From positions 1-32,243 of the forward strand of contig JAJDDZ010000285.1 of assembly GCA_029260025.1 (NCBI GenBank): DNA of 32,243 bases. The letters are read 5' to 3'. Below, in pieces: positions 2,064 through 30,315 of the stretch (within the stretch, counting starts at the first letter, position 1; every line of letters begins with the position of its first letter). The notes under the pieces are model-generated. The model made no database searches. It had not been told where the DNA came from and worked only from the letters and a program-made list of their open reading frames with translations. Both the position numbers and the translations under genes were made by a program. This stretch comes from Phycisphaerae bacterium. Lineage in GTDB: Bacteria; Planctomycetota; Phycisphaerae; UBA1845.

Positions 2064-3461
2064 CTACTGACCATCACCAAGGCGGCGAGGCCAATAGTCA
2101 TCAGGCGGAGGAGCATCCCGATCCCCGTCGGGGCGGATGTGCGAGAAAAGCGAATCTTTTTTCTTATCGTAAACCAAACGACCGTTCACAACCGTCCAAC
2201 GAACATGCGTCATGTAATGAAGAGGATCACCATCGGTTATCATGAAATTACCATCCTTGCCAATCTCAAGTGACCCAACCCGGTGGTCAATCCCAAGAAT
2301 ACGCGCAGCATCGATCGTAATCGAGCGAAGGGCAGCCTCCTCCGGAAGTCCGCCGCGAACAGCAAACGCAGCCTCCATATTCAGGTGTAACAGATCGCGA
2401 CCGGCAAGTCCCCAAGCGGTAATTGAGGCCGTCGACGGAACGATCGCGATGGATACCCCGTACTTATGCAGCGTCGCCGCATTTTCGATAGAGCGACCCG
2501 TCGGACGATTAAGACGCTCGTCCACGCCCGTATCCGTGCTAAAGATCGGCGGTCGAATCGAAATGATCGCAGACACCCCCGCACGCGCCATCCGACGAGC
2601 GACCGTCCATCCCTCAAGCGCACCGTCGATAACGATGCGAATCCCGTATCGCTCAGCAAGATCGCAAAACTGGTTAATCTCGTGGGCGGTATTAGCAGAA
2701 ACCTTCGCGACCGCCTCATGCTTGAGCAACTTGAAATACGTCTCGAAGTCGCCCTTCAACCATTCCTTGTCAGGTTCTTCCGCTTTCGGATCAGTCTTTT
2801 TCTTCTCGACATGCGACTGCAAGTCGCGCATGTACTGTCGAACCTTTTCAAACCCTTCGCGCACCTTACGTCGCTGTTTGGGATCCGAGGTCGAGTACCG
2901 AAGCCCAACAAAAAGGTCGCGCTTCACAACCATATCTTCTACCGAACCATACGTCAGAGAGACAGCCGTCTCACCCGAAACCGCCGTCGTAATTCCACTA
3001 GCCAGCGCGATCGTCATCCAAAGGGAGTAAACATCCGTCGTCTCTTCAGCCCTTCCGCTGCCAATAATGTTCCCGCCGCGAACGGCAACCAGCCCCGGAT
3101 AAAGATGAAAGCCAGAAGCATCAAGTGTTTCCGCGTCTTCAGGAATAACAACACCATGCCCCATTTCAGCAAGTCGGCCATTCTTTACGAGCACGGTAGC
3201 GTCATAAAGATCGCCACGAGAAAGCGTATGAATCGTCGCGCCAGTAACCGCGAAGTAAACATCCTTCTTCTCTTCCTTCTTGTCTTCGTCGTCTTTCTCC
3301 TCGTCGTCGCCTTTGGAGTCGGGGTCGTCCGTTTTCGTATCGACCGCTTCTTTCTTCTCTTCGGGCTTTGGATCTTCAGCAAAAGCGCGCGACGATGGTA
3401 GCACACAGCACGCCAAGCAAGCGAGAAGACAAAGTTGGATTAGCGATTCAAGTCGTCGCAT
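2064..3461 (-). CDS. Amidohydrolase-superfamily protein A, signal peptide, catalytic motifs lost (predicted pseudoenzyme)
   Basis: ORF 2064..3512 trimmed to ATG at 3461 (MRRLESLIQLCLLACLACCVLPSSRAFA = signal peptide; GAGAG upstream). C-terminus 'ARILGIDHRVGSLEIGKDGNFMITDGDPL' is amidohydrolase-like. 'LYPGLVAVRGGNIIG' stands where PGxIDxHxH is expected. Confidence 0.85.
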   Translation of the reverse strand: MRRLESLIQLCLLACLACCVLPSSRAFAEDPKPEEKKEAVDTKTDDPDSKGDDEEKDDEDKKEEKKDVYFAVTGATIHTLSRGDLYDATVLVKNGRLAEMGHGVVIPEDAETLDASGFHLYPGLVAVRGGNIIGSGRAEETTDVYSLWMTIALASGITTAVSGETAVSLTYGSVEDMVVKRDLFVGLRYSTSDPKQRRKVREGFEKVRQYMRDLQSHVEKKKTDPKAEEPDKEWLKGDFETYFKLLKHEAVAKVSANTAHEINQFCDLAERYGIRIVIDGALEGWTVARRMARAGVSAIISIRPPIFSTDTGVDERLNRPTGRSIENAATLHKYGVSIAIVPSTASITAWGLAGRDLLHLNMEAAFAVRGGLPEEAALRSITIDAARILGIDHRVGSLEIGKDGNFMITDGDPLHYMTHVRWTVVNGRLVYDKKKDSLFSHIRPDGDRDAPPPDDYWPRRLGDGQ

Positions 3462-3462
3462 G

Positions 3463-4818
3463 TTACTCTCGCCCCGCCAGTTTCTTGTCCCGCGCCCAAA
3501 CAATCTCACCAAGAATCATCACCCGAGTAACCTCGCTAAGCGGATCAAGAGGATCGCCATTGAAAAACGCCAGGTCGGCAAATTTGTCCTTCTCAATGGT
3601 CCCGAGCTTATCCTCAAGACCGATCGCCTTGGCTACGTTTTGCGTCAGCGCCTTCAACCCAGCCTCACGCGACAATCCCGTGCGAAGAAGCGATGCGACA
3701 CGACCTCGATACATCAAGAGTTCCTCTCGAGAATCATCCCACGGCATGGCAGCAACGTTGCACCCCCCTTGATCCAAGCGATTCATAAGGTTGTAGCGAA
3801 ACGTCGTATTCGGCATGTAGTGTGTCCACGGACGAAGGACAACCGTCGCCTTCCGCTCTCCGAGTTTTTCGACAGCAAGATGATAGTCGCTCGAACGCGA
3901 GGTCGCGAGATACAGTGTACGAGAAAGGTCTTTGTACTGGTCCATCACCGCGTCAAGGTGCAGCAAGTCGGACGCACGGGTTATCGTGACCGTCATCTGC
4001 CTGCCCTCTTTCTTCTCGATCAAGTCAACAAGTGGCTGATGCTTGGGATCGATCTTGGGAGGCTCAAACTTCTCCGCTTCCTTCTCTTCCTTGGCGTCTT
4101 CGGCATCACTTTCGTCATCCTCATCGGAGTCGCCCTCTTCTCGATAGGACTCGCCGCCCTCATCGTCGTATTCCTCGTCCGAGTCCGCTTCCTCCTCTGC
4201 CGCTTCTTCTTCCGCTTTTTCTTTCTGTTTCTTGTCCCACTCCTCGCGAGCTTTCTTGACCTTCTCTATTTCGTCTTTGGCTTTCTTCAGCGCACCGCCG
4301 AGCATCTTTCGACCACTGCTCCGCCAGTTCGGCGCGACCTGGAGATAGCTGTTGTCATCAAGCAATCGAAAATCATCGGGACCAGCAGTTCGATAGGTAG
4401 CGGCGGTCCCCGGAATGTCCGTACCAGCGGGCACAAGCGCCACAGCGACAAAACCCGCTTCGAGGAGATCGGCGAAATGCATTTGCGAAAGAGAGACTTC
4501 ATCAACAACGCTCTGATCGCCCTGCACACCGGTACGAGTGTACTTATCCAACCCAAACCGCGACCGCGGATGAATCAGACCGGGCATGACCGTTTCGCGC
4601 GGAGCGCGAATCAACTTTGCAGAGGAAGGATATTCAAGGTCGCTGCCAACGGCAGATATTTTTCCGTTTTCGATGACAACGACACCGGGCGAATACTCTT
4701 CACCAGAAACCGTGATGACGCGTCCAGCCTTGATAACAACAAAACCCTCATCGACGCCTCCGAGAACCGGAGAGGACATCACAAGAGCGATCGCAAAGGA
4801 GCAAAGCGTGTATCGCAT
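3463..4818 (-). CDS. Amidohydrolase-superfamily protein B, signal peptide, long acidic insert, HxH lost
   Basis: ORF 3463..4965 trimmed to ATG at 4818 (MRYTLCSFAIALVMSSPVLGG). 'VMPGLIHPRSRFGLDKY' and 'AIGLEDKLGTIEKDKFADLAFFNGDPLDP'. Starts 4 nt after the stop of gene C. Confidence 0.85.
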   Translation of the reverse strand: MRYTLCSFAIALVMSSPVLGGVDEGFVVIKAGRVITVSGEEYSPGVVVIENGKISAVGSDLEYPSSAKLIRAPRETVMPGLIHPRSRFGLDKYTRTGVQGDQSVVDEVSLSQMHFADLLEAGFVAVALVPAGTDIPGTAATYRTAGPDDFRLLDDNSYLQVAPNWRSSGRKMLGGALKKAKDEIEKVKKAREEWDKKQKEKAEEEAAEEEADSDEEYDDEGGESYREEGDSDEDDESDAEDAKEEKEAEKFEPPKIDPKHQPLVDLIEKKEGRQMTVTITRASDLLHLDAVMDQYKDLSRTLYLATSRSSDYHLAVEKLGERKATVVLRPWTHYMPNTTFRYNLMNRLDQGGCNVAAMPWDDSREELLMYRGRVASLLRTGLSREAGLKALTQNVAKAIGLEDKLGTIEKDKFADLAFFNGDPLDPLSEVTRVMILGEIVWARDKKLAGRE

Positions 4819-4822
4819 GGTT

Positions 4823-6064
4823 TTAGAACCGCCTCTTAACTTTGGCATCGTATGCGACCTTTCCCCGAATGACGGTGATTTCGCACGAGGACCGAGGGTC
4901 CAGCGGGTCGCCCGTCCAGATTCCGAAGTCAGCAGACTTACCCGGTTCGATCGAACCGACTTCACTGTCGATCATCAGCGCTTCAGCTGGGATCTTTGTC
5001 ACGCCCTTAAGCGCTTCGTAGGGAGTCCATCCGTACCAGCACGCCATGGCACCTTGGTAGCTAAGCTCCGCCTGGGGTACGACTGGGGCATCGGTATTGC
5101 AGCCGAGTTTTTTCTGACCGCTCTGCCACCATCTGGCGCAGTTTCCGTGCATCTTGCGCTGCGACCTGTCGAACCAATACTGTCGTGGTCCGTTAATCGT
5201 GTAAACGTCACTGCCCTTCAAGATCGCGGTTGTCTTGAATCCGTCGAACGTACCGTGGTCGATGATGGTTCGAATTTTGAGCTTCTTTGCGAGCATGTCC
5301 ACGGTCGTCATGACAACTTGATAGGCCTGCGTATGCACGGACGCGGGGAACTTTCGCTGAAAGAGGCCGCGAAAACCTTCGAAGATTGGATCAAACAATG
5401 GTGCATTGGCCACCTTTTTTTCCTCGAACGCGACCCACTTCTTGTGGTACCCGAGCGCCTTCTCCAGGGTCTGCCGGGTGTTATAGTTCATATAGCTTCG
5501 TCCGACGCCGTACCAGTACCACTCGGGGTTTCCAGCTTGGGCGATTTTCAGCGAGCCGGGCGCACGCATAACGACTTCATCAACGGTTCGCCCGGCGGTC
5601 TTGGTGATCGTGCCGAACCCGCTCATGTTTGTTCCGCTACCGGGAATCAATAGCACGGAGGTCACCCCGCCCGCTCTCGCTTGTTTGATGAGTTCGTTGT
5701 CGGGGACGATGGTCTCAAGCGTGCGAAGACCGGGGTTACTCAGATAAACCATGTCGTTGAGATCCGCCAAACTACCAGCGGTATGGTTGTGAGCATCGAC
5801 CAATCCGGGGACGACCCATTTATCGCTCGCGTCGATGACGCTGTAACCATCAGGGATCGGTGTCTTACCTTGCTGACCCAGTCCTTTGACGAGGCCGTCC
5901 TCGACGAAGACGATCGCGTTGTTGTAGACCGCGTCCTCACCGTTCATCGTGATGACTTTACCCGCTTTGATCGCGAGGCCACCGGCTTGCACGCTGTAAA
6001 TGCACCCTGCGAACGCGATACACGTCGCAGCAAGTCGAACATGTTTCCTACGTGTCGTAATCAT
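4823..6064 (-). CDS. Amidohydrolase (imidazolonepropionase-related) C: the only array member with intact canonical metal/catalytic motifs
   Basis: Signal peptide-like N-terminus. 'VVPGLVDAHNHTAG' (HxH at 5783..5791), 'SVHTQAYQVV', 'IRTIIDHGTFDG', 'LGCNTDAP', 'VGSIEPGKSADFGIWTGDPLDPRSS'. Confidence 0.93.
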   Translation of the reverse strand: MITTRRKHVRLAATCIAFAGCIYSVQAGGLAIKAGKVITMNGEDAVYNNAIVFVEDGLVKGLGQQGKTPIPDGYSVIDASDKWVVPGLVDAHNHTAGSLADLNDMVYLSNPGLRTLETIVPDNELIKQARAGGVTSVLLIPGSGTNMSGFGTITKTAGRTVDEVVMRAPGSLKIAQAGNPEWYWYGVGRSYMNYNTRQTLEKALGYHKKWVAFEEKKVANAPLFDPIFEGFRGLFQRKFPASVHTQAYQVVMTTVDMLAKKLKIRTIIDHGTFDGFKTTAILKGSDVYTINGPRQYWFDRSQRKMHGNCARWWQSGQKKLGCNTDAPVVPQAELSYQGAMACWYGWTPYEALKGVTKIPAEALMIDSEVGSIEPGKSADFGIWTGDPLDPRSSCEITVIRGKVAYDAKVKRRF

Positions 6065-8832
6065 TCGACTTCCTCTCCACCGACGAGCACTCGTTTGACG
6101 CGCGTCCGAGCTTCAAACGGATGGCCATCAAAAATCACGAGGTCGCCATGGCAGCCTTTTTTCAGCGAGCCGATCTCATCTTCGAGTTTGAACATCTTGC
6201 TTGGGCGTGTCGTGAAAGCAGAGAGGGCAGCGTCGGGCGACATCCCGCGTTGGACGGCGTGCAGTCCGAGATTGCGAAGGGATCTTGCGCCGTCCTCGGC
6301 GTCGCTTTGAAAAGCAACCGAAACGCCCTTTCGAGAAAGGTCGTCCGCCTGATGATACGGTGTATGGTTCAACCATCTAACGATCTTCGTTGGAACGACA
6401 ACGCCAATCGCCAACTCTATGAGTTTTTCGAAGTGGACAGCTGCCCCTTCTGCGTCGAGCAGAACGATTCCGACTTCAAACTCGCTGGCGAGCTTGAGAA
6501 CTTGTGCGATCTGCTGTTGATTCGAGGCTGCGATCAGCAGCGGAATCTTCTTTTCCAGGGCGGCGCGAATCGGTTCGAGACCGTCGTCCGTCTTCGGCGG
6601 AAGCGGGCGACCATCTTTGCCTCGCTTGCGACTCTTGACGACTTTGAACTGAACATCTTCCTTGTCGGTTCGAGTTGCATCGAGATCAATCACGATGTCT
6701 GATATCTTCAGCTCTCCGACGAGGTGGTCGGGTTCGGTCAAATCTGCTTCAATTGCGGGCGGACCAAACGGGGTCTCGACATCGATTTGCCCGGAGACAT
6801 GTTTCCCGTCGAACGTCGCGGTCACTTTCGCTTCGTCGGGTTGCCCTGGGATTCGGATTCGGCCTTCGATATCTGCGCCGTCGAGCTTCAAGAGCATCTT
6901 GGCTTGTTGCGGTTCGGGAATCGGACCGCCGGAGATTGTTACCTCCCATGTGCCGGTGATGGGATCTTCTTCTTGTGCTTCCTCGTCAAGGGCGTCGCCG
7001 TTCTTCTTGATCTCGATCTTCTCGCCTTTGGCTTTCTTTTCTTTCCACTCGGCGAGTTCCTTTTCGTACTTCTGCCACTTCTCCAAGTATTTCTTTCCTG
7101 CTTCGAGTCGCGGCTTGAGTTTTCCCAAGACTCCAGCGGGGTCGCCCTTTCGTACGTCGAAGTAGACGCTTGCGGCGTTTCGGACGAGCCGTTTGTCGCG
7201 TGTTGTTCCCGCTGTCTTGATGGCTGCGATTTGCGAACCTTGAGGGGAAGCGGCGTATGGGGCTGTTAGTACCGTAGTCACGCCCGACATTGCGACACGA
7301 TGTTCGCTTACGTCGGGGACGCCGACCATTGATGCCAGAGAGAGGTTTGGATTTAGCGAGCTGGTATCGCCATCTAGTCCGAGGTGACCGAAGGCGTCAA
7401 TGAATCCGGGCGTCACGAACGAGTTAGCACCAGCATCGATATAGTCTGCGAAACGCGGACGTGGGACGCTCGTGCCAACGGCGGAGATTCTTCCTTTTTC
7501 GATGAGGACCGACCCGTCCTCGATACGAGTATTCTCGTCGATCCAGATTGTTCCCGCGTGAACAACGACGGCGTCAACGTATGGCGCTTCGAACGCAACT
7601 AGACCTCCGACGTACACGCGTTTGACATGCGATGATGTTTCAAGGGGTGGCCCGCTCATAATGACGAGGTCTGCTTGTTTGCCTCGCTCGATGCTGCCAG
7701 TTCGATCGTCGATGCCAAGAATCTCGGCCGGAATACGGGTGATGGCAGCGAGCGTTTCCGCTTCGGTGAGTCCGGCACGCATAGCTGTCGCTGCAGAGAG
7801 ACGGAGTTGATCGACTCTCGCTCCCGCTGGTGGAGCGAGGGCGATTGTCGCGCCGCGGAGTTTCTTGAGCGCTTGAATGTCGCGATCGACGACATCGGGA
7901 TCGGGGCCTAGATCGTTTGAGATTGCGTCGAGCGGTTCGCCCATTACGAAAACCAGCGGCACATGTGCCTCGGCGATTTCTTGGGCGGTGATGTCCGCTT
8001 GTGCTCCGCCGACGAGGTACCCGCTGCGCTTGTGATTGTAAAGAAAACGGACGGCGCCAGTGATGTCGACCGATCGGTCAACGTGGATTCGCAGCGGGGC
8101 GTTGTTTCTCCACGCATTGGTTAGTGCGGCTGGGTGTAACCCCGACTTTGTTCCACTTTCTGCAACGCGAAGTGCTTCTTCAAGCGCAACGAATTGTCCT
8201 AGTCTTGAATCGGGTCGCTGCCGAACGCCCGGCGGGATCGCCACGTCCGAAGAAGCGGGGGTTTGGTAGGTTACGTCGTTGGGTGGGCCGTAGGCGGACT
8301 CGTTGAAGTTGATCGTGAGGTCCGAACGCTCATTCAGGATGCGCGACATCGGCGACCCGCCGAGTCGAACGATGGCCCCTTGGCCTGTTAGCAGTCGATG
8401 CGATCCGGGATCGAGATGAACGGTCGTGACGCCCTCAGCCAATGCTTCTTGAAAATCGCCGTAGTTATCGAACGCATCGAGCGCCAGGTACCCGGCGGCG
8501 ACCGACTCATCGCCTGCGTGCTTGGGGGTCATCGAATTCGCCGCGGCGATGAAACCCGGTACGACGTGGGCATCTTTGAGGTTGATCACTTTGAGGTCGG
8601 GTGGAATCGCCAAGTCTTTGCCAACTGCGACGACCAATCCATCGCGGACGATGACCATACCAGGTTCAAAGACTTCTGATGATTCTTTCGCTACGGGATA
8701 GACGCGTTTTGCTTTAATGACGAACGAATCTCCGTCGGCGAGGGTCGGCGTCGTTCCAAGCGCAAGCGCCGTGAGCGCAAGGGCGAAGGCCCTTGTCTTG
8801 AGGCGGCGTAGTTTCACGGTGGGAGAGATCAT
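6061..8832 (-). CDS. Two-module amidohydrolase-superfamily protein D (923 aa), both HxH sites degenerate, beta-rich insert in module 2
   Basis: Two copies of the N-terminal start motif ('FVIKAKRVYPVAKE', 'VVHAGTIWIDENTRIEDGSVLIEKGRISAVG') and two of the C-terminal motif ('GSIERGKQADLVIMSGPPLE', 'GSLKKGCHGDLVIFDGHPFE'). 'VPGFIAAANSMTP' and 'TPGFIDAFGHLGLDG'. ATGA overlap with gene C. Confidence 0.9.
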   Translation of the reverse strand: MISPTVKLRRLKTRAFALALTALALGTTPTLADGDSFVIKAKRVYPVAKESSEVFEPGMVIVRDGLVVAVGKDLAIPPDLKVINLKDAHVVPGFIAAANSMTPKHAGDESVAAGYLALDAFDNYGDFQEALAEGVTTVHLDPGSHRLLTGQGAIVRLGGSPMSRILNERSDLTINFNESAYGPPNDVTYQTPASSDVAIPPGVRQRPDSRLGQFVALEEALRVAESGTKSGLHPAALTNAWRNNAPLRIHVDRSVDITGAVRFLYNHKRSGYLVGGAQADITAQEIAEAHVPLVFVMGEPLDAISNDLGPDPDVVDRDIQALKKLRGATIALAPPAGARVDQLRLSAATAMRAGLTEAETLAAITRIPAEILGIDDRTGSIERGKQADLVIMSGPPLETSSHVKRVYVGGLVAFEAPYVDAVVVHAGTIWIDENTRIEDGSVLIEKGRISAVGTSVPRPRFADYIDAGANSFVTPGFIDAFGHLGLDGDTSSLNPNLSLASMVGVPDVSEHRVAMSGVTTVLTAPYAASPQGSQIAAIKTAGTTRDKRLVRNAASVYFDVRKGDPAGVLGKLKPRLEAGKKYLEKWQKYEKELAEWKEKKAKGEKIEIKKNGDALDEEAQEEDPITGTWEVTISGGPIPEPQQAKMLLKLDGADIEGRIRIPGQPDEAKVTATFDGKHVSGQIDVETPFGPPAIEADLTEPDHLVGELKISDIVIDLDATRTDKEDVQFKVVKSRKRGKDGRPLPPKTDDGLEPIRAALEKKIPLLIAASNQQQIAQVLKLASEFEVGIVLLDAEGAAVHFEKLIELAIGVVVPTKIVRWLNHTPYHQADDLSRKGVSVAFQSDAEDGARSLRNLGLHAVQRGMSPDAALSAFTTRPSKMFKLEDEIGSLKKGCHGDLVIFDGHPFEARTRVKRVLVGGEEVE

Positions 8833-10313
8833 TCCTTCTTTTTCTCAGCGTCTTTTGTCATTTCATTGGGTGCGGGTGCTTCTAGCTTGTCGGCGTCACC
8901 TTTGGAGTGTCCCGCCTTCGGATCAACGGGTGCTCCTTCGTTTTTTTCACCCTTTACCTGCTCGGGAATTTCCGGTTTCTCTTCTCCTAGAAGCTGCTTG
9001 AGGCGTACGTCGCTCTCTCGCTCGTAGGCGCGAATCCCGTTGATGTAAACCAAGTCTACCCAACTGGAAAAATCTAGCGGGTCCCCGCTCATGACGACGA
9101 CATTGGCCGTTTTGCCTACTTCAATCGATCCGAATCGGTCGCCAATACCGATCGCACGAGCCGGGTTGATCGTGATCGCTTCCAATGCTGTCTTGCGGGC
9201 GATGCCGTTTCGGACGCAACGAGCTGCCTGGTAATTCAAGTATCGCTCGGCGAGAGAGGTATCGCCGCTTGGTAAGAGCGAGAAGGCGACTCCGGCGTCG
9301 GCATAGACTTTTGGGATGAATGTTTCGGTGATCTTGCCGGTAATTGGGTTTTCTTCGCGATAGAGTAGTTGCGAATCGAGCACCACGGGGCGACCGGTCG
9401 CTTTGATCTCTTCGATCGCTTTGTAACAGCGCGGACCGAGGACAAGCGTCGTTTGATCGAAGAAGCCGTGCTGTTTGGCGAGACTCTCTGCGGCCGCGAT
9501 GTCAGCGGCACGGCCCGCGTAGACGAAAGCGCCGAGTTGTCCGCCTGTGAGCTTTACGAGGTTTCTGTGCTTGTCATCGTAGTCTTCTGGTTTGATTAGG
9601 TCCTTACCAAGTTTTTTGGCTTCGTCGGGACCGACTTTGATTTTCTCGTCTTTCTTCTCCAGCGATTCTTCGTACTTGGTCTCGGCTAAGTCGTCGAGAT
9701 ACTCGGCAAGTTCGCGAAATGTTTCGCGGAAGGTGGCCAGCTGCGCCATACGGTCGGAACGGTTTTGCGGTGCAACGCTTAGTTTCAGGGAAACGGAGGG
9801 TTGTTGGGTCATCTCGTCGGGGGTGATTCCGATAGGGTGGATGGCGCGACTGAGACCACCGATGACGCAGTTGTGACCGACGATCGCGTGAATCGTGGTG
9901 ATTCCGTCGCGCAACGCGTCTTCGAAGTAGAGTTTCGATGGGTCGATCGCATCGTAGACGTCAAGGAATGGGGTGACGTCTAGGTTTTCGTTTCGAATGT
10001 CTAGACCCCGCGCCGAATGGGCGTCGATCATGCCGGGCATGACGACTTTTCCGGTCACGTCAACGACCATTGCGTCGTAGGGGATTTCGACATCCTTGCC
10101 TACCGCTTTGATCTTACCGTGTTCGATCAGGATGGTTCCTACGGGGATGTCTTCACCGACGATCGGGATGATTCGCCCTCCCTTGAGAGCGATCTTCGCG
10201 GGTGGTGACGCGAAAGTGGCTGTCGCGATAAGCAACGCGGCGAGCGCGGTCATGAATTGTATTGAAAAGCGACGGTTCACAACTATCTCCGTTCGATCAC
10301 GATTTGACTTCAT
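8829..10313 (-). CDS. Amidohydrolase-superfamily protein E, HxH degenerate, charged C-terminal tail
   Basis: 'VVMPGMIDAHSARGLDIRNENLD' and 'ARAIGIGDRFGSIEVGKTANVVVMSGDPLDFSS'. Lys/Glu/Pro-rich C-terminal tail. ATGA overlap with gene D. Confidence 0.88.
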   Translation of the reverse strand: MKSNRDRTEIVVNRRFSIQFMTALAALLIATATFASPPAKIALKGGRIIPIVGEDIPVGTILIEHGKIKAVGKDVEIPYDAMVVDVTGKVVMPGMIDAHSARGLDIRNENLDVTPFLDVYDAIDPSKLYFEDALRDGITTIHAIVGHNCVIGGLSRAIHPIGITPDEMTQQPSVSLKLSVAPQNRSDRMAQLATFRETFRELAEYLDDLAETKYEESLEKKDEKIKVGPDEAKKLGKDLIKPEDYDDKHRNLVKLTGGQLGAFVYAGRAADIAAAESLAKQHGFFDQTTLVLGPRCYKAIEEIKATGRPVVLDSQLLYREENPITGKITETFIPKVYADAGVAFSLLPSGDTSLAERYLNYQAARCVRNGIARKTALEAITINPARAIGIGDRFGSIEVGKTANVVVMSGDPLDFSSWVDLVYINGIRAYERESDVRLKQLLGEEKPEIPEQVKGEKNEGAPVDPKAGHSKGDADKLEAPAPNEMTKDAEKKKE

Positions 10314-11809
10314 CCTTTGCGTCGATCCACAACAATTTTTCCGCCGGAAATAACCACGACTGGCTTTGAAGCCCCGTCAAACGGTTCGCCGTTCCAGAGA
10401 ATCAGGTCGGCGCGTTTCCCTGATGCGACAGTTCCGACTTCGTCGTCGATACCGAGAAGCTTGGCGGGGGTTTCTGTGACACATCTAGTCACATCTTCGA
10501 GCGACACGCCGAAGCGCCTCGCGTACATCGCTTGTCTTGCGAGTCCGTCTTCGTCGCGAAGCTCGTGGGCGGTTAGTGCCGTCGGGATTCCGGCGCGAAG
10601 CAATTCTTTGAGCGTGTGCAGTCTCGCGTTGTCGACCTCCGAGCTAAACGCCCGTGCGCCAGGCGCGTCAACATATACAGGGCCGTATACGACGGGGGAT
10701 TTAGAATCTCTTAATTCGTCGAGACACCGATGGGCTTCGGTAGCTTCGATGAGCGTGAATTCTAGTCCGAACTCATCGGCGAGGCGAAGGGCGGCGAGAA
10801 TATCGTGTTGCATTCGAGCCTGTATTCGTAGTGGAATCTTACCGGCGAGCACATGGCGAAGCTCTTTCATGGCTGGCTCTGTCGGGGCGTCTGCGCCGTA
10901 GACAATCTCGCCTTTGTCGAATCGATCCGTGTCATACATCGCTTTGCGGAAGACCCACGCGACGCCCATGCGCGTTGTCGGTCTTCGGTTGTAGAAGTTG
11001 ACGAATTCGCGGAAAGGCAAATTATTGCTGAACCCGCGACGCGCCGGATCCGAACCCATCGAAGCCATGACGGCGCCCGACTCTCGAACGACTCTATCGT
11101 GCAATGACCCCGCCGTTCTTAGGATTGCGCCCTGAGAACTGATGACCGCTGCTGAGTCTGGTGCCGCGAAGACCGTTGTGACACCACCGCCCGCGAGACG
11201 ATCGAAGTCGGGTGATCTAAGATTGACCGAGTCGATAACGCGTGTGTGAGGAATAACTTCTGAAGAATGCTCCACCGACATCGCCGAGCGTCGAACGCCG
11301 ACTGCCATTGCTGGACTCGTATCGGGGAAACCGCACTGTTTGCACTTTGCACCGGATGCATGCTGAAGCTGACGGGGACAACTTGAACCGCAGCACCCGA
11401 CGGATTCGTTTTCATGACCTTTGTGGTCGCCGTGAAAGAGGTCGGCGGCGACTTGTCTGGCGTTGCGCCGATCGACCATCATGACATCTGTTGGTTCGAG
11501 GGCTGCGTTGGCATCGATCAGACCTGGGGTGATTGAACCGCCTGCAAGCTCGATGACTTTCGCGTCGGCGGGAATCGTAAGGTTGGCACCGACTTGTGTG
11601 ATGCGCCCGTTGCGAATAACGACGACGCCGTGATCGATAATCTCGCCGTTTCCAATGTGGACGGTGGCACCTTTTAGCACGATCGCATTATCAGCGGCGC
11701 GAACGGGCGGAATGGTCAACATCCCCGCGATCACGGCGGCGATACCGAGCTGGACGATATGCAAACCCTTCAAACATAGGGGCTTCTGATGATTGGCGCT
11801 AATCTTCAT
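10310..11809 (-). CDS. Amidohydrolase-superfamily protein F, HxH lost, Cys/His-rich insert
   Basis: 'SITPGLIDANAALEPTD', 'LRIQARMQHDILAALRLADEFGLEFTLIEATEA', 'AKLLGIDDEVGTVASGKRADLILWNGEPFDG'. ATGA overlap with gene E. Confidence 0.88.
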   Translation of the reverse strand: MKISANHQKPLCLKGLHIVQLGIAAVIAGMLTIPPVRAADNAIVLKGATVHIGNGEIIDHGVVVIRNGRITQVGANLTIPADAKVIELAGGSITPGLIDANAALEPTDVMMVDRRNARQVAADLFHGDHKGHENESVGCCGSSCPRQLQHASGAKCKQCGFPDTSPAMAVGVRRSAMSVEHSSEVIPHTRVIDSVNLRSPDFDRLAGGGVTTVFAAPDSAAVISSQGAILRTAGSLHDRVVRESGAVMASMGSDPARRGFSNNLPFREFVNFYNRRPTTRMGVAWVFRKAMYDTDRFDKGEIVYGADAPTEPAMKELRHVLAGKIPLRIQARMQHDILAALRLADEFGLEFTLIEATEAHRCLDELRDSKSPVVYGPVYVDAPGARAFSSEVDNARLHTLKELLRAGIPTALTAHELRDEDGLARQAMYARRFGVSLEDVTRCVTETPAKLLGIDDEVGTVASGKRADLILWNGEPFDGASKPVVVISGGKIVVDRRKG

Positions 11810-13014
11810 CGCTGTCCCCCTGCCAAGGCGGTCTGTTGTTCGTCGGCGCTGTAAACGCGAATTCCATCGATGTAAACCGCAAGTACGCGCGAATCCAGTC
11901 GTAGCGGGTCACCTGAGAAGATTACCAGGTCAGCATCCATCCCCGGGCGGATCGCACCGATCCGATTGGAAACGCCGGCTGCCTTCGCAGCGTTCAGTGT
12001 GATCGCCAAACGAGCTTTGGCTGGATCCATCCCGTATCGAACCGCGAGGGAAGCGGTCTGACGCAACGCATGTCCGCCTTCGATCGGCATGCGCCCGGCG
12101 AGCGCAACATCAACCCCGGCACCAGAGAGAACGCCCGCAGTAGAGAGCGTCCGTTGGGTCATCGAGAATGAATATGGGCCAACGATCATCATGGCCTTTG
12201 ATCCGGCGACTTCTTCTGCGAGATCGTGAACGTCGCTTGTGTGGACGATCGATACATTAGCTGCGAGCTTGCCGACGGATCGGAGGGCAGCCCCTACGTC
12301 CATGGCGTCATTGCAGAAAAGCATTGCGTCGAGTTTCCCGGAGGCGATCGCTTGTAATTTTGCATGTTGGGGGTGTTGCGAACTTCCCCGACTATCTGCT
12401 AGCGTTGAACGAAGCATCGCCATCGCACCGATTCGCGAGGTCGGCTCTCGGTCATATTTCCAAGTCGCGGGACCGAACCCGAACACAAGGGGGCCGTCGT
12501 CACGAAGAACGCTTCCTGCTCGTGCGGAGGTCTTTCCGCCGGTCTTGACCACCGCACAACTACCCGCGACGAGATTTGCCGGCGCGGGGGCGATCAGGGC
12601 GGCCGTGATTCCTGATTCAACGGCGAGGCGGAAATCGCGATGATCCGGAACGAACGAGTCGATGACTGAGACGCCCGGATCGACGGAAAACGCGGATTCT
12701 ACAGTGTTTCCGTAAGCGCCCATTGACGAACGAACGTCGATCAGACCCGGACAAACGACGGCATCGTTGTAGTATGCGATTTTTGCGTCGTCGGCGATCT
12801 TTGCGTCTGGTAGAATCGCGGCGATCTTCCCGTTGGACAGGGTAATGATTCGCTTTGGTCCGATGGTGCCATCAGGTGCCACATAGCGACCTGCGACAAT
12901 CGCCGTGGGGGCACGTTGCGAATTCTGTGCGCGAGCATGAGCGCCTGAGGCGACCACGGTCGTCGCAGCGGCAATGAGAGAGCAAACCATAGGCGTCGAT
13001 CGAACGAACTGCAT
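11806..13014 (-). CDS. Amidohydrolase-superfamily protein G, HxH lost
   Basis: Signal peptide 'MQFVRSTPMVCSLIAAATTVVASGAHA'. 'VVCPGLIDVRSSMGAYG' and 'IGAIRPGMDADLVIFSGDPLRLDSRVLAVYIDG'. ATGA overlap with gene F. Confidence 0.87.
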   Translation of the reverse strand: MQFVRSTPMVCSLIAAATTVVASGAHARAQNSQRAPTAIVAGRYVAPDGTIGPKRIITLSNGKIAAILPDAKIADDAKIAYYNDAVVCPGLIDVRSSMGAYGNTVESAFSVDPGVSVIDSFVPDHRDFRLAVESGITAALIAPAPANLVAGSCAVVKTGGKTSARAGSVLRDDGPLVFGFGPATWKYDREPTSRIGAMAMLRSTLADSRGSSQHPQHAKLQAIASGKLDAMLFCNDAMDVGAALRSVGKLAANVSIVHTSDVHDLAEEVAGSKAMMIVGPYSFSMTQRTLSTAGVLSGAGVDVALAGRMPIEGGHALRQTASLAVRYGMDPAKARLAITLNAAKAAGVSNRIGAIRPGMDADLVIFSGDPLRLDSRVLAVYIDGIRVYSADEQQTALAGGQR

Positions 13015-14639
13015 TACGATCCACCTTCCGATAGCTGCGGGGCTAAGTAGGCGAGTTTCCCGCCTACGAAAACGCGTTCGACAATTGAACTAGGATCACC
13101 GGGATCGCCCGACCAGATGACTAAATCGGCTTCCATTCCTTGCTCGATGCGTCCGATCCTTCTTGACATCGAAAGAAATCGAGAAGCGTCTCCGGTGAGC
13201 TTGTAGAGCCAAGCGTATTGTGTTGAGCCATTGAAACTCTTCTTGTAGCCGTTTGATGTTGCCAGTTGCGAGTTGAAGGCGATGAAACGTGCCGCCGTTG
13301 GGTCGTGGCCACCGCTTCCGATCATCCATCTCACCCCAGCACTCGTGAGAAGCTCGGCGTTGCGCGTTGTATGGCGGCGGAACTCTGTGTCTTCGAAGAC
13401 CGCAGTTCTGCCAACCTGCCCCAAGACGACCGGAACCTCAGACGTCGCCAGCGCGTCCGCGACGAGATACGCTTCGGTAGCCCCTTCGATGACGATATCA
13501 AGATTGAACTCGTCTGCGAGGGCAAGGGCATTGAGAATGCCGTCGGAGCGATGGGCTTCGATTCGGACTGGGAATTCGTGGTCGATGGACTTGAGTATCA
13601 CGTGGGAGACGGCGTCGAACGCTGGTTTTGCAGGTTTTTTTAGCTCGTCTTCGTCTTTTTTCTCGTCCCCGTTGTTGTCGCCGTCCTTACCGCTATCGCC
13701 CTGCTTGTCGTCGTCTGAACCATCCTCAGCCAGGGGCGTCTTCTCCGAGCCCGGAGCGAAGAAACTGCGAAGACTGGTATGCTTACCATCTCCGTCCTCT
13801 TTTTCTTCCTCTTTGTCGCCATCTTCCTTTTCGTCGTCGCCTGGATCGGGAGCGGGCGTCTTGTCATCGGTGGACTTTTCGTCTTTTGGGGACTCATCCC
13901 CCTTCTTGTCGCCGTCCTCTTTGTTGCGAAGTTCTTCGAGCTTTTTGACGTACTCTTTCAAATCTTCGTCATAGTCTTCGAGTGATTCGCGGTAGTCGAT
14001 GGCGGATTGAAATTGCTTGCGGATGGCGGCAAATGTCTTAATGCGTGCGATCGGGGAACGGTCTGATCCGAAGTTGACGCAGAGCGCGGCGTCCTTCTCG
14101 CGAACGATGCCGGCGGACTTTCCTGCACCGGGTGCGAGCTGAATGATGGCTGCGGTTCCGTTGATTCCAGCCCCGCCGTCTGCGCCGATGTAGATCGTTG
14201 TTACGCCGTGTCTAAGTGCTTCGCGGAAGTCGTTTCGAGCGTATCTGTCGAACCCGTCTTGGGCGCGGGAAGTCGCTTTGCCATCGCTGGCGCCTCCGGT
14301 TCGACCGAGCGTGCTCCAGACATCGATGAGACCGGGCGTGACTGTCTTGCCGGCGCCGGCCACCTTTTTCGAGAGAAATGGCGCTTTCGCAGTTGCTCCG
14401 ACGGCTTCGATCTTACCGCCCTTGATGATGATGGAACCTTTCTCGATGACCAACCCACTACCGGTCATGATCCTAGCGTCGGTGATGACGGTCGCTCGTT
14501 CTAGGAGTTGCCCGTGGGCGGGGGCAACGTGTAACGCAACAAAAAAAGCGATTGCGAATAGTCGGACGTAGCGCCGGCGCAGAAGCCCCCCGGCCATCGA
14601 AAATGTGAAGTGGCGGGTTTTCATCGCGAGAAGGTGCAT
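13014..14639 (-). CDS. Amidohydrolase-superfamily protein H, HxH lost, large Asp/Glu/Lys-rich insert; first gene of the array
   Basis: ORF 13014..14837 trimmed to ATG at 14639 (alternative 14624). Hydrophobic 'YVRLFAIAFFVALHVAPAHG' segment. 'TVTPGLIDVWSTLG', 'FPVRIEAHRSDGILNALALADEFNLDIVIEGATEAY', 'IGRIEQGMEADLVIWSGDPGDPSS'. TAATG overlap with gene G. Confidence 0.86.
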   Translation of the reverse strand: MHLLAMKTRHFTFSMAGGLLRRRYVRLFAIAFFVALHVAPAHGQLLERATVITDARIMTGSGLVIEKGSIIIKGGKIEAVGATAKAPFLSKKVAGAGKTVTPGLIDVWSTLGRTGGASDGKATSRAQDGFDRYARNDFREALRHGVTTIYIGADGGAGINGTAAIIQLAPGAGKSAGIVREKDAALCVNFGSDRSPIARIKTFAAIRKQFQSAIDYRESLEDYDEDLKEYVKKLEELRNKEDGDKKGDESPKDEKSTDDKTPAPDPGDDEKEDGDKEEEKEDGDGKHTSLRSFFAPGSEKTPLAEDGSDDDKQGDSGKDGDNNGDEKKDEDELKKPAKPAFDAVSHVILKSIDHEFPVRIEAHRSDGILNALALADEFNLDIVIEGATEAYLVADALATSEVPVVLGQVGRTAVFEDTEFRRHTTRNAELLTSAGVRWMIGSGGHDPTAARFIAFNSQLATSNGYKKSFNGSTQYAWLYKLTGDASRFLSMSRRIGRIEQGMEADLVIWSGDPGDPSSIVERVFVGGKLAYLAPQLSEGGS

Positions 14640-14976
14640 CAATCCCCTCAACCTCGTAAACTCTGTATTTGCAGACTGCGTCCGGCGTCGAACTAACCTA
14701 AGCTCAACAACTTCACTATACTCGGCGCTACAGGATGAGAAAATACATAGAAATGGTTTCTGGGGCAAAACAGAAAATATGCACAAGTATTTACAAACCG
14801 TCGCGTCAACACAGTTACGCGTTGCTTGCGATGGCAACCAGTCCGTATCAATATAGATATGGCTATGGCGGGAGGAAAAAGATTTGCGCGGAGTCGCGGA
14901 AACTTTTTTTTGGACGGGGTCTATTCGAGCCGCCCGTCAGACAGACGAGGGTCTCTGGCTTCAAGGAAATCGCAGA

Positions 14977-15651
14977 CTACTCGTCCTGCGAGTCTTCCGA
15001 CTCGCCGCAGCTTGCATTGGGGTCAGTTTCGTAGGGAGTGGCGGGACCTTCTGCGGGCACGGCTTTTAGCGCCGGAATCGAATCAGCTTTGTCGTCGTCG
15101 ATCTTGGGTAGATCTTTGAGGGAAGAGAGGCCAAACACCTCTAGGAACTTGGTCGTTGTCCCGTATAGCAATGGTCTCCCGATTTCTTCGGCGCGTCCGA
15201 CGATGCGGGCGAGATTCACATCTCGCAATCGCGACAACATCTCGCCGCATGCGACGCCGCGAACCGCCTCGACCTCGGCGCGGAGGACTGGCTGCTTATA
15301 GGCGACGATCGCGAGGGTTTCCAAAAGCGCTGGCGATAGTCGCGAGTCAGACCGCGCTTTGAAGAGCTTACTGATCCAGCGATCGTACGTTGGCTGGGTC
15401 ATGATCTGATAGCCCTTGGCGATAAGCTCGACTCGAAACGATGCGCCCTCTCGCTCGTATCGCTCGTTGAGGGCTTCGACGTGGTTTTTCACATCGCTCG
15501 CCGTCCCAACTCCGAGAATTTGGGCGATCTTTCCTCCCGAGAGAGAGTCGTCCGAGGACATCAACAAAGCCTCAACAATCGCTTCGGGCGAGACTTCTTC
15601 GTGTTGGTCTTGAACTTCTTGATTTTCAATGTTGTCCACTGTCTCAGTCAT
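14977..15651 (-). CDS. scpB: Segregation and condensation protein B
   Basis: ORF trimmed to ATG at 15651 (MTETVDNIENQ). 'SPALLETLAIVAYKQPVLRAEVEAVRGVACGEMLSRLRD...GRAEEIGRPLLYGTTTKFLEVFGLSSLKDLP' is diagnostic of ScpB. Confidence 0.95.
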   Translation of the reverse strand: MTETVDNIENQEVQDQHEEVSPEAIVEALLMSSDDSLSGGKIAQILGVGTASDVKNHVEALNERYEREGASFRVELIAKGYQIMTQPTYDRWISKLFKARSDSRLSPALLETLAIVAYKQPVLRAEVEAVRGVACGEMLSRLRDVNLARIVGRAEEIGRPLLYGTTTKFLEVFGLSSLKDLPKIDDDKADSIPALKAVPAEGPATPYETDPNASCGESEDSQDE

Positions 15652-15862: not shown

Positions 15863-18001
15863 ATGGCAACCACGGTAAACAAAATCAAGAACGCTGACTT
15901 TTCGCGAGGAGCGAAGACGCCCACGAGCTGGACATGGTCAGGATCGCCCTCGGGAGCTTCCTGGGAGCGAACGCCTGCGACCAAGACGGCGAAAGCAATA
16001 ATGAGCCTCGATTGTACACGTCCGAGTGGGCGGGCGCTCTGGTCCCAGACGGTTGTCTGCAAACCCGATGAATATTACCGCATTGATGCGGTGGTCGCGG
16101 CTGACGCGACCGTGGCGGACGTTCGCGGCGGGGTTGTCATCGTAATCGAGGCACTCGAAGACGGCGAGGTCGTCGATACACGATCGACGCCGGGGATCCA
16201 TCGGGCTCTGACGCCGGAGACGGTTCGCGCATTCTATCTCGTTCCTGAGGGCGTGAGACGGCTTAAGATTTCTGTCGGACTGGTCGAGGCCTTCGGTAAA
16301 GCTGAGCTGCACGCAGTGCGATTCATTGAGATGATTGAGCCAGATGAGTTGAGTCATCCGTTGGCTGTCCCTCCGCCGCCTCACGAGGTGCCTGCGCCGC
16401 TCTTGGCGAAGAGCGTTTGCGTCTGCTCTGTCACGGCTGCCGACCGGCGGGTGGCGAGGCTTCTCGCGCAAGCATTGGGCGAACGGAGAGTTTCTAGTGT
16501 TGCGCCTGCCGCGTTTAAGCCAACGACTGCTTCCTCTGATGCGATTCTTTTCCCTGATGATACGCTCCCTCGTTCGATCCGCTCTGTTTCAACGCTTGCC
16601 AAGCTCGCGGAGGATCGCATTGTGATTGTATCGCTTCCGGCATTCTGTGCGATTGCCGGCGACGACGTGTCATTTCGCCGTGTCGAGCAAACCGACGATC
16701 CGATCAATGGAAAAATCATGTGGGGTTGTTATGCGTCGCGTGGATTCGCCTTGCACGATGTTTTTCCACATGCATGGGCTGGAAAAGCTGAGGCGAGCTA
16801 TGCGCATCATCAATTCCGCGGCGGGAAGAAGTTCAAGGAATTCTGCAAGAAAAACAAGTTCGAGGTCTTTCTCGACGCGATGTGCGACAAGGAGTCAACC
16901 TCGGATCAGCCGATGGCCCTGTACCGCGAAACCTCAAGCGGGGCGCTTTTCGTGCTGGATATCGAGCCGGTCGAGGCGGTCGGTACGACGATGAACGAAC
17001 CGGCGATTGCGATGCACCTGCTTCTTTCGGTCTTGGGACATAGTCAGCACAATCTGGGGCAGTTCGCGTCGCCGACTTACGAAGAAAAGAACCTACGGGA
17101 CTCGATTCGAGAGATGGCGGTTCGTATTGAAGCGATCCATGTGCTCGATGAAGACTTGCCAAGCGACCAAATCACAGAACAGCTCGTCACCATCGGGTCG
17201 GAAGACCAATCGTTCGGACTTCCGCTGGAAACCAAACCGGTTATTTTGGTTCGAAGTGGCTTACAGTCGGGCGATGCCGAAGCAATTCACGGCGCTTGGA
17301 CTTGGTTTAAGCAGCTCGTTCGGCCCGCGCCGTTCACTTGCCCCTATGGCGAGGCGATCGCGTCCGCGTTCAGGTTCGCCTGGATCCCGTCGATGGCCCC
17401 GCTCGACCAGCGCGCGGGGTTGATTCGCACGAACCGCGACCCCATCGCGGAGATGGCGATTGATACGGACGATGGCGAACTCGCGATGATGATCGATCTT
17501 GTATCGCGACCACGCAACCGAGTTCGGGTCTGTTTTTCTGAGCACAGCGACGAATTTGAGCGCTACGCAACGCAGCTACCACAGCTTTTCGCTGCTTTTC
17601 GACCGGGGAATTACTTTATGCCCACGGTCGGACCTGGCGGAGACTTTGGGGATCGTAGCGCGTACGAATGGCAATTCGCCCAGACGCCAATCGAGGTCGT
17701 GGTGGATTCCGAATCGTTCGATGCGCCGGAATACGCGCAACTTCGCGACACGAATGTCGGACTGGTGCGAATCGAAGTGCCAGGGTGTGACGCCGACTTT
17801 GCTGCATGTTCGATCCATCGAACAGACGTGGCAGCCACCGCTCTTGAGCACGTGATCGGTCTTCAATATGGACTGATCGGCGTTAACCGGACGAAATCAC
17901 GGATCCGGTACGATGGTTTCGCGCCGATCAAGCCCGGCGACGCAATCATCGCCCGCACGGACGGGACAGCCATCCTGCAAACGTCTGCAACGGCGAGCTA
18001 G
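15863..18001 (+). CDS. Hypothetical protein, 712 aa; N-terminal jelly-roll/CBM-like region, no recognised family
   Basis: Long ORF with ATG and an upstream promoter-like element. 'GRALWSQTVVCKPDEYYRIDAVVAADATVADVRGGVVIVIEAL' resembles carbohydrate-binding beta-sandwich modules. Confidence 0.8.
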   Translation: MATTVNKIKNADFSRGAKTPTSWTWSGSPSGASWERTPATKTAKAIMSLDCTRPSGRALWSQTVVCKPDEYYRIDAVVAADATVADVRGGVVIVIEALEDGEVVDTRSTPGIHRALTPETVRAFYLVPEGVRRLKISVGLVEAFGKAELHAVRFIEMIEPDELSHPLAVPPPPHEVPAPLLAKSVCVCSVTAADRRVARLLAQALGERRVSSVAPAAFKPTTASSDAILFPDDTLPRSIRSVSTLAKLAEDRIVIVSLPAFCAIAGDDVSFRRVEQTDDPINGKIMWGCYASRGFALHDVFPHAWAGKAEASYAHHQFRGGKKFKEFCKKNKFEVFLDAMCDKESTSDQPMALYRETSSGALFVLDIEPVEAVGTTMNEPAIAMHLLLSVLGHSQHNLGQFASPTYEEKNLRDSIREMAVRIEAIHVLDEDLPSDQITEQLVTIGSEDQSFGLPLETKPVILVRSGLQSGDAEAIHGAWTWFKQLVRPAPFTCPYGEAIASAFRFAWIPSMAPLDQRAGLIRTNRDPIAEMAIDTDDGELAMMIDLVSRPRNRVRVCFSEHSDEFERYATQLPQLFAAFRPGNYFMPTVGPGGDFGDRSAYEWQFAQTPIEVVVDSESFDAPEYAQLRDTNVGLVRIEVPGCDADFAACSIHRTDVAATALEHVIGLQYGLIGVNRTKSRIRYDGFAPIKPGDAIIARTDGTAILQTSATAS

Positions 18002-18022: not shown

Positions 18023-19147
18023 CTACACCGCGCGGCGAGCGAATCTGATTGCTTGCTTGAGCGGGACGATGGCAGCTTCGGGAATCATCCCAAGGTGTCG
18101 AACCGTTATGCCGAGAACATCCGCATCGACCGCCGCCTTGAGCGCCGCGGTAAGATCCGCAGCCTCCCCCGCAACCGCCAGCGCCGCTGGAAACGCAATC
18201 TCCACCGAGTTCTCGTTCTCTTCGGAAACGTCCTGAAACTCCTCGAGCGACCCGACGAACACCTGCAGGGTTGTCGAGGAAGAAGCGGCGATGTCGCACA
18301 TGTTCTCTTCTGCGAAAATCACCTCCCCGCCGCTCTTTGCTTCGACGATCTCGAACAGGTCCGCAACCGTCTCAAGATGCGTTGACCAATACGCCTGCAT
18401 CGCCGCATCCATATTCGGCATTGCGTCGTGGGCACATTCGTCTCGCGGACCTCGGTCGATCGCTTCGCCCACCGCTCGCCGAACATCAATATTGACCGCA
18501 GCAACATCGATTCCCTCGCGACCCGCCTTCGCTGCGCATGCGTCACAGAAACACCATGTCAGAAGAGCTTGCTCGACGGTATCGAGCAGGGCTGCGTCGT
18601 AGCTTCGCGGCGTACAGAGAAGATCATCGCAACCGGCGACCATATCCGAGACAACGAGCTCCGCGTCGCTTTTGAGTTCCTGCAGGGAGGCGGCGAGGCC
18701 ACCGACGTAGGTTTGCACATCGACGTTTGAGGGGCAGACGCAATCTTGAGACTTCGCGCCCAGCGCATTAATCGCGGCGAACTCAGGGTAGCGATTCGCC
18801 ATCCCACCGCCTCGTAGCGCCGAGCCGATGAAGCGCACGCCCAGTCCGTGATGATCGCACACGTCAATCGCCCGTCGCATCGAATCGTTTTCTCTTGCGA
18901 GGTCGGCGATGACGGGTTTGCAATCCGAGGACTCGAAATCTGAATCCTTCGGCTTGTATAGAAGCCCCCCGGACGATCGGACCATCCCCGCTGTCTCGCC
19001 GAACCGATTCATCGCTGAAAATGGCGGCGTGGACGCCCAGAGTGCGACACCGGTAATTCCGACTTCGCCGTGCAGACATTCTAGGCGTTTCTCTCCGGCG
19101 GGCGAGACTACATCCCAAGGATACGCTTCTACAAAGAATGGGAACAT
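18023..19147 (-). CDS. Hypothetical protein, putative TIM-barrel glycosidase-like
   Basis: ORF 18023..19162, probable ATG at 19147 (MFPFFVEAYPWD; AGG upstream). 'GITGVALWAS...', 'LTWCFCDACAAKAGREGIDVAAV' is a Cys motif resembling some putative bacterial glycosidases. Convergent with the 15863 gene. Confidence 0.7.
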   Translation of the reverse strand: MFPFFVEAYPWDVVSPAGEKRLECLHGEVGITGVALWASTPPFSAMNRFGETAGMVRSSGGLLYKPKDSDFESSDCKPVIADLARENDSMRRAIDVCDHHGLGVRFIGSALRGGGMANRYPEFAAINALGAKSQDCVCPSNVDVQTYVGGLAASLQELKSDAELVVSDMVAGCDDLLCTPRSYDAALLDTVEQALLTWCFCDACAAKAGREGIDVAAVNIDVRRAVGEAIDRGPRDECAHDAMPNMDAAMQAYWSTHLETVADLFEIVEAKSGGEVIFAEENMCDIAASSSTTLQVFVGSLEEFQDVSEENENSVEIAFPAALAVAGEAADLTAALKAAVDADVLGITVRHLGMIPEAAIVPLKQAIRFARRAV

Positions 19148-19259
19148 GTCCTGGCTTTCCAATATGGTGTTATTTGGTGCATCAAGGGGGTCATTCTAGC
19201 GTCCTGGCATCCGGAAACCAGAACCTCTTGGAACGAAAAATGCTCCGTACTGATTTTCG

Positions 19260-20615: not shown

Positions 20616-21683
20616 ATGGACCCAACCCACGACACGCCCACGATCCCACCTGAACTAGCACGTTACTCGCGGCAAATTCTCCTTGAAAAAATTGGCATGG
20701 CGGGACAGCGTAAATTGGCTGAGTCCCGGGTATTGCTGGTTGGGTGTGGTGCATTGGGGACTGTCCTCGCTAGCACGCTGGTTCGCTCTGGCGTGGGGTT
20801 CGTCCGCCTTTGTGACCGGGATTTCATTGAGCCGAATAACTTGCAGCGGCAAATTCTCTTTGATGAGGACGACATCGCCGCTAATTTACCCAAGGCTGTG
20901 GCAGCGACGAAGAAGCTTGCAAAGATTAATAGCGATGTCACGGTCGAAGCGGTCGTTGATGACGTGAACGCAACAAATTTCGAACGTCTCGCGGGTGACG
21001 TGTCCCTCATACTCGATGGGACCGACAATTTCGAGACGCGCTTTTTGATTAACGATTACTGCGTGAAAAATGGCAAACCCTGGGTGTATGGTGCCGTGAT
21101 CGGGACGACGGGCCTTTGCATGGCAATCGTTCCGCATGATACGCCTTGCCTTCGGTGCGTGTTTGAAGACGCCCCGCCGCCAGAGATGAGCCCGACGTGC
21201 GACACGGCTGGCGTACTCGGTCCGGCGGTCAATCTTGTGGCGAGTTTTCAGGCGACAGAAGCAATCAAACTGCTCACCGGGCAAAATAACCAGATCAACA
21301 GGAGTCTGATGCACATCGACGCATGGGCCGGTCGGGTATCGCAAATGAAAGTCCAATCCGCCCGTGAGGCGGGTAACTGCCCATGCTGCAAGCGAGGCGA
21401 GTTTCCCTATTTGAGCGGCGAGCTTTCCTCGACGACGACGACACTTTGCGGGCGGGATGCTGTGCAGGTGCAGCCCGGTGGAGCGTTGACCGTTGATTTC
21501 GCTTCGATCGCCAGGAAGCTCGAACCGCTGTCTGGGGGCCAAATTCGTTTCAACCGATTCATGCTGCGAGCAACTGTCGAAACGTGCGAGATGACGCTTT
21601 TTCCTGACGGGCGAGCGATCATCAAGGGCACATCCGACTCAAAGCGTGCCCGATCCCTTTACGCAAAGTACATCGGAACGTAG
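20616..21683 (+). CDS. HesA/MoeB/ThiF family adenylyltransferase (E1-like) with C-terminal extension
   Basis: 'RYSRQILLEKIGMAGQRKLAESRVLLVGCGALGT', 'DRDFIEPNNLQRQILF', 'DGTDNFETRFLINDYCVKNGKPWVYGAV', zinc CxxC pairs 'CLRC' and 'CPCC', 'CDTAGVLGPAVNLVASFQATEAIKLL'. Confidence 0.94.
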   Translation: MDPTHDTPTIPPELARYSRQILLEKIGMAGQRKLAESRVLLVGCGALGTVLASTLVRSGVGFVRLCDRDFIEPNNLQRQILFDEDDIAANLPKAVAATKKLAKINSDVTVEAVVDDVNATNFERLAGDVSLILDGTDNFETRFLINDYCVKNGKPWVYGAVIGTTGLCMAIVPHDTPCLRCVFEDAPPPEMSPTCDTAGVLGPAVNLVASFQATEAIKLLTGQNNQINRSLMHIDAWAGRVSQMKVQSAREAGNCPCCKRGEFPYLSGELSSTTTTLCGRDAVQVQPGGALTVDFASIARKLEPLSGGQIRFNRFMLRATVETCEMTLFPDGRAIIKGTSDSKRARSLYAKYIGT

Positions 21684-21710
21684 AAACTATTGGGAACGTA
21701 GAAACTATCG
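21675..21710. repeat. 18-bp tandem duplication (2 copies, 1 mismatch) spanning the stop codon of the ThiF-family gene
   Basis: ggaacgtagaaactattg / ggaacgtagaaactatcg, read directly at 21675..21692 and 21693..21710. Confidence 0.9.
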
Positions 21711-21783
21711 GCATGTTGAAACCGCGCGGGGGCAGGCCTATTACCCGTTCGCAAAGCAAGAGCCAAAGGAAAATCGAATCGCG

Positions 21784-30074: not shown

Positions 30075-30315
30075 TGGTGTCGTCACCTTTCGTAAAGTCC
30101 GGGCAGTACCCGATTGCTTGCGGGCGAGTTTCGTCCGATCATACCGCACCTATCGACTCAGGACGAATCACGCCCTCCAATCCGAGGTCGGTGCTCAACC
30201 AACCTTTCGCGAGCGTCGATCTTCTACGCGGGGAAGCCCTAAAAAGCTGACCCGTTTGGGGTTCGACCGATAACCGTACGCGAAGTTTCAAGCAAAAGTT
30301 CAGGAGTACTCAGCA

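Follow-up and report, generated by a model that had tools for sequence, protein, structure and literature searches.

The window (the whole 32,243-nucleotide stretch analysed, contig C207 of a 4.13-Mb draft host genome) carries a minus-strand run of eight successive open reading frames (ORFs; 2064 to 14837). The likely start of the last ORF is at 14624, giving a gene span of 2064 to 14624 (−); genes were named g8 (transcribed first) to g1 (transcribed last). All eight proteins passed the Pfam gathering scores of Amidohydro_1 and Amidohydro_3, and no foreign gene lies inside the array. The initial annotation, which had described an eight-gene array made entirely of amidohydrolases, was correct in this respect, and the gene order is conserved in relatives. 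Its count of eight paralogs holds for genes; domains number nine, because the 923-aa gene g4 is a fusion of two full domains, N-terminal (4N) and C-terminal (4C). Junctions (overlaps of 1, 4, 4, 4, and 4 bp; gaps of 4 and 1 bp) resemble those of a translationally coupled operon. Promoter and terminator scans returned no more signals than were found in shuffled sequence. The 'PG[LFM]I/V' and C-terminal 'G.I..GK.AD' motifs reported earlier are present, but the HxH expected after 'PG[LFM][IV]' was absent or incomplete in eight of the nine window domains.

Array members

The first gene, g8 (13014..14624, −; 536 aa; ORF open to 14837), has a predicted signal peptide and a predicted non-catalytic amidohydrolase-fold domain (Amidohydro_1/3 over cut-off) with a long acidic/lysine-rich insert; none of six metal ligands was found in 43 of 47 orthologues (dN/dS, 0.13). 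It is overlapped by 1 bp by g7 (11806..13014, −; 402 aa; predicted signal peptide; dN/dS, 0.13), predicted to be non-catalytic in the window, with HxH kept by some distant orthologues and the full site by none. Gene g6 (10310..11809, −; 499 aa; 4-bp overlap with g7; predicted signal peptide) is also predicted to be non-catalytic. Its residues ~135 to 185 form a His/Cys-rich insert (H..H, CC..C, C..C) that sits after the lost HxH, is conserved in near relatives, seems to be weak or missing in distant families, and is a possible separate metal site. A profile alignment placed an HxH of g6 on this insert; a second alignment method disagreed, and the assignment was rejected.

The best conserved of the predicted non-catalytic members is g5 (8829..10313, −; 494 aa; 4-bp overlap with g6; predicted signal peptide), which matches PDB 3ooq over its full length and typically retains just one His of HxH plus the Lys. 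It is followed, with a 4-bp overlap, by g4 (6061..8832, −; 923 aa), in which both fused domains are predicted to be non-catalytic; an insert in 4C (g4 residues ~625 to 723) has no Pfam match and is predicted, at moderate confidence, to consist of successive beta strands. A complete set of metal site residues (H92, H94, K173, H244, H270, and D325) is found only in g3 (4823..6064, −; 413 aa; predicted signal peptide), whose dN was also the lowest among the eight genes (dN/dS, 0.065). Two further predicted non-catalytic members with predicted signal peptides complete the array: g2 (3463..4818, −; 451 aa), with a long acidic insert, and the last gene, g1 (2064..3461, −; 465 aa; dN/dS, 0.064), for which 45 of 47 orthologues lack all six ligands.

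Flanking genes and export

Likely N-termini were Sec-type signal-peptide-like in all eight genes of the window. A simple signal-peptide test was passed by 81% of array genes versus 24% of flank ORFs, a control that includes ORFs that are possibly not genes; these values suggest that the array products are exported. A search for conserved neighbours returned only scpB and a divergent 712-aa gene, both in five near relatives, and no conserved transporter or receptor gene. The conserved unit has sharp limits at g8 and g1, because the flanks are conserved only in those five relatives. The scpB gene (segregation and condensation; 14977 to 15648, −) sits immediately upstream of the array in the same orientation. 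Beyond it are two proteins without a Pfam match (15863 to 18001, +, and 18023 to 19162, −), the first of them divergent to scpB and kept beside the array in the five near relatives. Further along, the gene of a ThiF-family protein overlaps with the next gene, for a class-V aminotransferase (20616 to 22962), and a second, cysteine desulfurase-like class-V aminotransferase is encoded nearby (28944 to 30149); the ThiF and class-V aminotransferase genes are predicted sulfur transfer genes.

Conservation and gene order

Within the host's taxonomic order, full-length g4 relatives were found from the same genus out to other families, and g3 in 34 of 114 genomes. A phylum sample of 393 genomes (each species represented by a single genome, often a draft; all counts depend on the chosen E-value cut-offs) contained g5 in 96, g3 in 104, and g1 in 103, the last count leaving out six weak matches, mostly long double-domain proteins. 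All three were present in 90/393 genomes and any of them in 107/393 (Fisher P < 1e-70).

Arrays were read in stretches of up to 20 kb around matches; some missing members fall at contig ends. The order 8-7-6-5-4N-4C-3-2-1 was complete in 37 stretches; two further arrays were completed from overlapping stretches (L064 with L075 and L074 with L076), and two more (L073 and L095) deviate only by one weakly assigned member. In total, at least 23 family-level groups of Planctomycetota contribute about 40 complete arrays, with one order throughout and no lineage missing from any complete array. The array is therefore far above chance, the order being identical in every complete relative examined, and the conserved neighbourhood that the initial annotation proposed looking for in Planctomycetota does exist. 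Every named record carrying the array belonged to Planctomycetota, and several were from Phycisphaerae. Plasmids searched with g3 yielded nine distant relatives in other phyla; identity was ≤30% in those of full length. One genome (G119) carries two complete, divergent arrays (L059 and L099).

Domains 4N and 4C are fused in nearly all arrays, 8-7 are fused in four genomes (G382, G193, G075, and G119), and 8-7-6 form a single 1356-aa frame in G177. In one genus (G209 and G238), the set is split, with 8-7-6-5-4 and 3-2-1 on different contigs; all members are retained, and in G238 the break is far from contig ends. Clear tandem duplication was limited to g3, which reaches two to four copies in several families, nearly all of them site-complete.

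Metal site across lineages

The six ligands of g3 were invariant in 15 aligned orthologues and aligned to the matching residues of PDB 3ooq, and the ligand set of active enzymes (HxH, Lys, His, His, and Asp) was complete in g3 of 20/20 near orthologues; in these near relatives, few ligands are left in the other eight lineages. Phylum-wide (460 domains from all collected arrays), the six residues were complete in 64 of 65 g3 copies; the 395 domains of the other eight lineages kept at most four of six, and most kept none to two. In these eight, the His ligands of strands 5 and 6 are missing, as in most cases is the Asp, and g1, g2, g8, and 4N have no ligands in most genomes. Partial remnants occur in 4C (second His of HxH in 35/49; Asp in 18/49), g5 (H92 and K173 in most copies), and g7 (HxH in a few families), with the ligand columns of the most divergent lineages (g2, g7, and 4C) resting on remote alignment. 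HxH alone was dropped as a criterion of activity: some g7 and 4C copies keep it, with the rest of the site missing. Residual or ancestral activity can be envisaged in the distant families where g7 or 4C keeps HxH. On these alignments, g3 is the sole lineage with a full predicted binuclear metal site.

Selection and history

Against a congener, dN/dS was 0.064 to 0.134 across all eight genes; judged from these values, the eight site-less lineages are under purifying selection, with no decay. Median coverage of the common core was 82 to 92% per lineage, and g5 has 79 invariant residues versus 91 in g3. Mean identity across the phylum was 48% for g3 versus 29 to 41% for the other lineages, which share 20 to 25% identity with g3 (hhalign).

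A domain tree (FastTree; 158 domains from 17 genomes) recovered seven of nine lineages as strict clades, with g7 and g8 nearly so; the order of duplication is left uncertain because many branches are long. Neither of the findings named beforehand as fatal, genes not conserved together in relatives or members from unrelated superfamilies, was obtained. Pairwise evolutionary distances of the nine lineages correlate (r, 0.73 to 0.92), as expected from block inheritance or block transfer, although shared ancestry alone would also suffice.

Two cousins of the array were seen. On another contig of the host genome (C212), locus L053 is a two-gene pair (2945 to 4207 and 4574 to 5527, −), an amidohydrolase with HSH (frame only 317 aa) and then one with a degenerate HAT motif, possibly an active-plus-pseudo pair at its simplest. 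Locus L028 (1369 to 4119, −) encodes two amidohydrolase domains, the first with an intact-looking HxH and the second degenerate; proteins of this type (~1480 aa; frames of about 1.4 to 1.5 kaa) are widespread among many relatives. Together, the cousins suggest how a nine-member set could begin.

Relation to known systems

For the profiles tested, the nearest solved structure was PDB 3ooq, an uncharacterised amidohydrolase that we take to be Thermotoga maritima TM0814 (best full-length matches, 1.6e-52 for the g3 profile and 4e-61 for the g5 profile). The g3 and g5 profiles match along its length, as a TIM-barrel plus beta-sandwich fold would predict, but the structure predictions were of low confidence (pLDDT 42 for g3, from 6 sequences, and 53 for g4, from 5) and too poor for interfaces or a fold search. 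Unlike the array, 3ooq is encoded by a single gene and is not known with inactive operon paralogues. The earlier comparison with imidazolonepropionase was loose: the best array score for HutI (TIGR01224) was 76.8 bits against a cut-off of 298.15 bits, and 3ooq is the nearest structure. Scores for Xaa-Pro dipeptidase of the Caulobacter type (NF051886; cut-off, 500 bits) were 72.5 for g3 and at best 78.5 (g4).

Three described systems share parts of this arrangement. In the MetCaCb metformin hydrolase (ureohydrolase superfamily), a metal-binding paralogue requires an adjacent-encoded metal-free one in a single hetero-oligomer (PMC11271267). The array is similar, as far as genes alone can tell, in that catalytic and metal-site-lacking paralogues are encoded and conserved together; MetCaCb differs in superfamily, in having two paralogues rather than nine, and in that export is not shown for it. 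In Pseudomonas ATCase, an inactive dihydroorotase that has lost its zinc ligands is required for complex assembly and activity (PMC7053772). This too is a site-less chain of the amidohydrolase superfamily in a partnership, but there a single dead paralogue serves an unrelated enzyme and is cytoplasmic. Ochratoxinase, a COG1228 amidohydrolase of the same broad superfamily, is a homo-octamer with D4 symmetry (PMC11342369), which makes a multi-subunit particle natural for the amidohydrolase fold, although it is a homo-oligomer of one active chain. Literature searches on such an array, on pseudoenzyme amidohydrolases, and on relatives, which covered few subscription journals, returned no description of the array; a search on ClpPR also returned nothing.

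The CCT chaperonin, proteasome beta rings, and plastid ClpPR are many-paralogue rings that arose from homo-oligomers, with some subunits inactive. They are mainly eukaryotic and have unrelated folds, and the array would combine one active with eight inactive domains. Any ring formed by the array products would be hypothetical.

Interpretation

We consider it probable that the products of the operon form a single exported metallohydrolase, a hetero-oligomer in which one domain is catalytic and the other eight are pseudoenzymes. Gene g3 would supply the only catalytic chain of an exported metal-dependent amide or peptide hydrolase, with a predicted binuclear site formed by the two HxH His of strand 1, a probably carbamylated Lys of strand 4, His of strands 5 and 6, and Asp of strand 8. 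Having lost this site, g8, g7, g6, g5, 4N, 4C, g2, and g1 would be pseudoenzyme subunits that assemble with g3 into a particle, gate its active site or shape the way into it, and/or serve in substrate binding. The origin of the set may lie in repeated duplication of a homo-oligomeric enzyme from this family, after which every copy was fixed in a position of its own. Given the family, the likely target is an amide or peptide bond; export, contact between chains, what each subunit does, and which bond is cut are what we infer from the features above. The initial annotation had offered two interpretations. The first, a multi-subunit assembly, can be inferred with good support from strict co-occurrence, fixed order, fusions of neighbours, and one catalytic alongside eight non-catalytic paralogues. 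Division of labour among eight different metal-dependent hydrolases is contradicted, because one lineage alone keeps the metal site.

It is unlikely, though by no means far-fetched, that the non-catalytic members are instead independent exported receptors, carriers, or chaperones for g3 substrates, in one pathway with no particle. Their signal-peptide-like N-termini, their strong divergence from each other, and the one or two ligand residues that several keep (K173 or a single His), which could hold a ligand, would all fit, and a shared pathway, or transfer of the whole block, would likewise produce co-occurrence, order, and distance correlation. Contact is favoured, however, by the fusions between neighbouring members and by the scarcity of partial sets, and no transporter or receptor gene was found among the conserved neighbours. 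We think it improbable that each of the eight or nine is an active amidohydrolase with its own substrate, some relying on different metal sites or on chemistry without metal: every member belongs to an enzyme superfamily, and 4C, g5, and g7 keep partial ligands, but the losses on strands 5 and 6, the mostly ligand-free g1, g2, g8, and 4N, and the contrast with g3 would be unexpected if all were enzymes. Planctomycetes have unusual envelopes, and a large, predictedly exported assembly of many paralogous subunits might be a structural layer in which hydrolysis by g3 is incidental or regulatory; we give this little credence, as g3 is the most conserved member, has a complete predicted active site, and is the one found in extra copies. 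A tandem block in decay or evolving neutrally, an ordinary paralogue expansion with pseudogenes, would explain the missing catalytic residues but is rejected with near certainty because of dN/dS values of 0.06 to 0.13. Also against it, the frames are intact, as many as 79 residues are invariant in a dead lineage, and a single order holds phylum-wide with no member missing from complete arrays.

The hetero-oligomeric metallohydrolase can be given a more specific form, which we offer tentatively, as something that could well be wrong. In an exported particle with exactly one catalytic position, nine positions would have been fixed from a homo-oligomeric ancestor before planctomycete families diverged, and the two to four g3 copies would be interchangeable, making it a prokaryotic counterpart, on a metabolic enzyme fold, of paralogue rings of the CCT or proteasome type. 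A fixed stoichiometry of one of each member is hard to square with one to four g3 copies, unless these are interchangeable.

Routine annotation would label all eight genes 'amidohydrolase family protein' and so inflate the enzyme count in these genomes. A single complex of the array products, if it exists, would be a hetero-oligomer unusually rich in paralogues and encoded by one bacterial operon. The array is convenient for testing, being a single operon with defined boundaries and one predicted active site, and, if the reading is true, it would provide a test case for how a homo-oligomer becomes an obligate hetero-oligomer and why eight dead copies persist.
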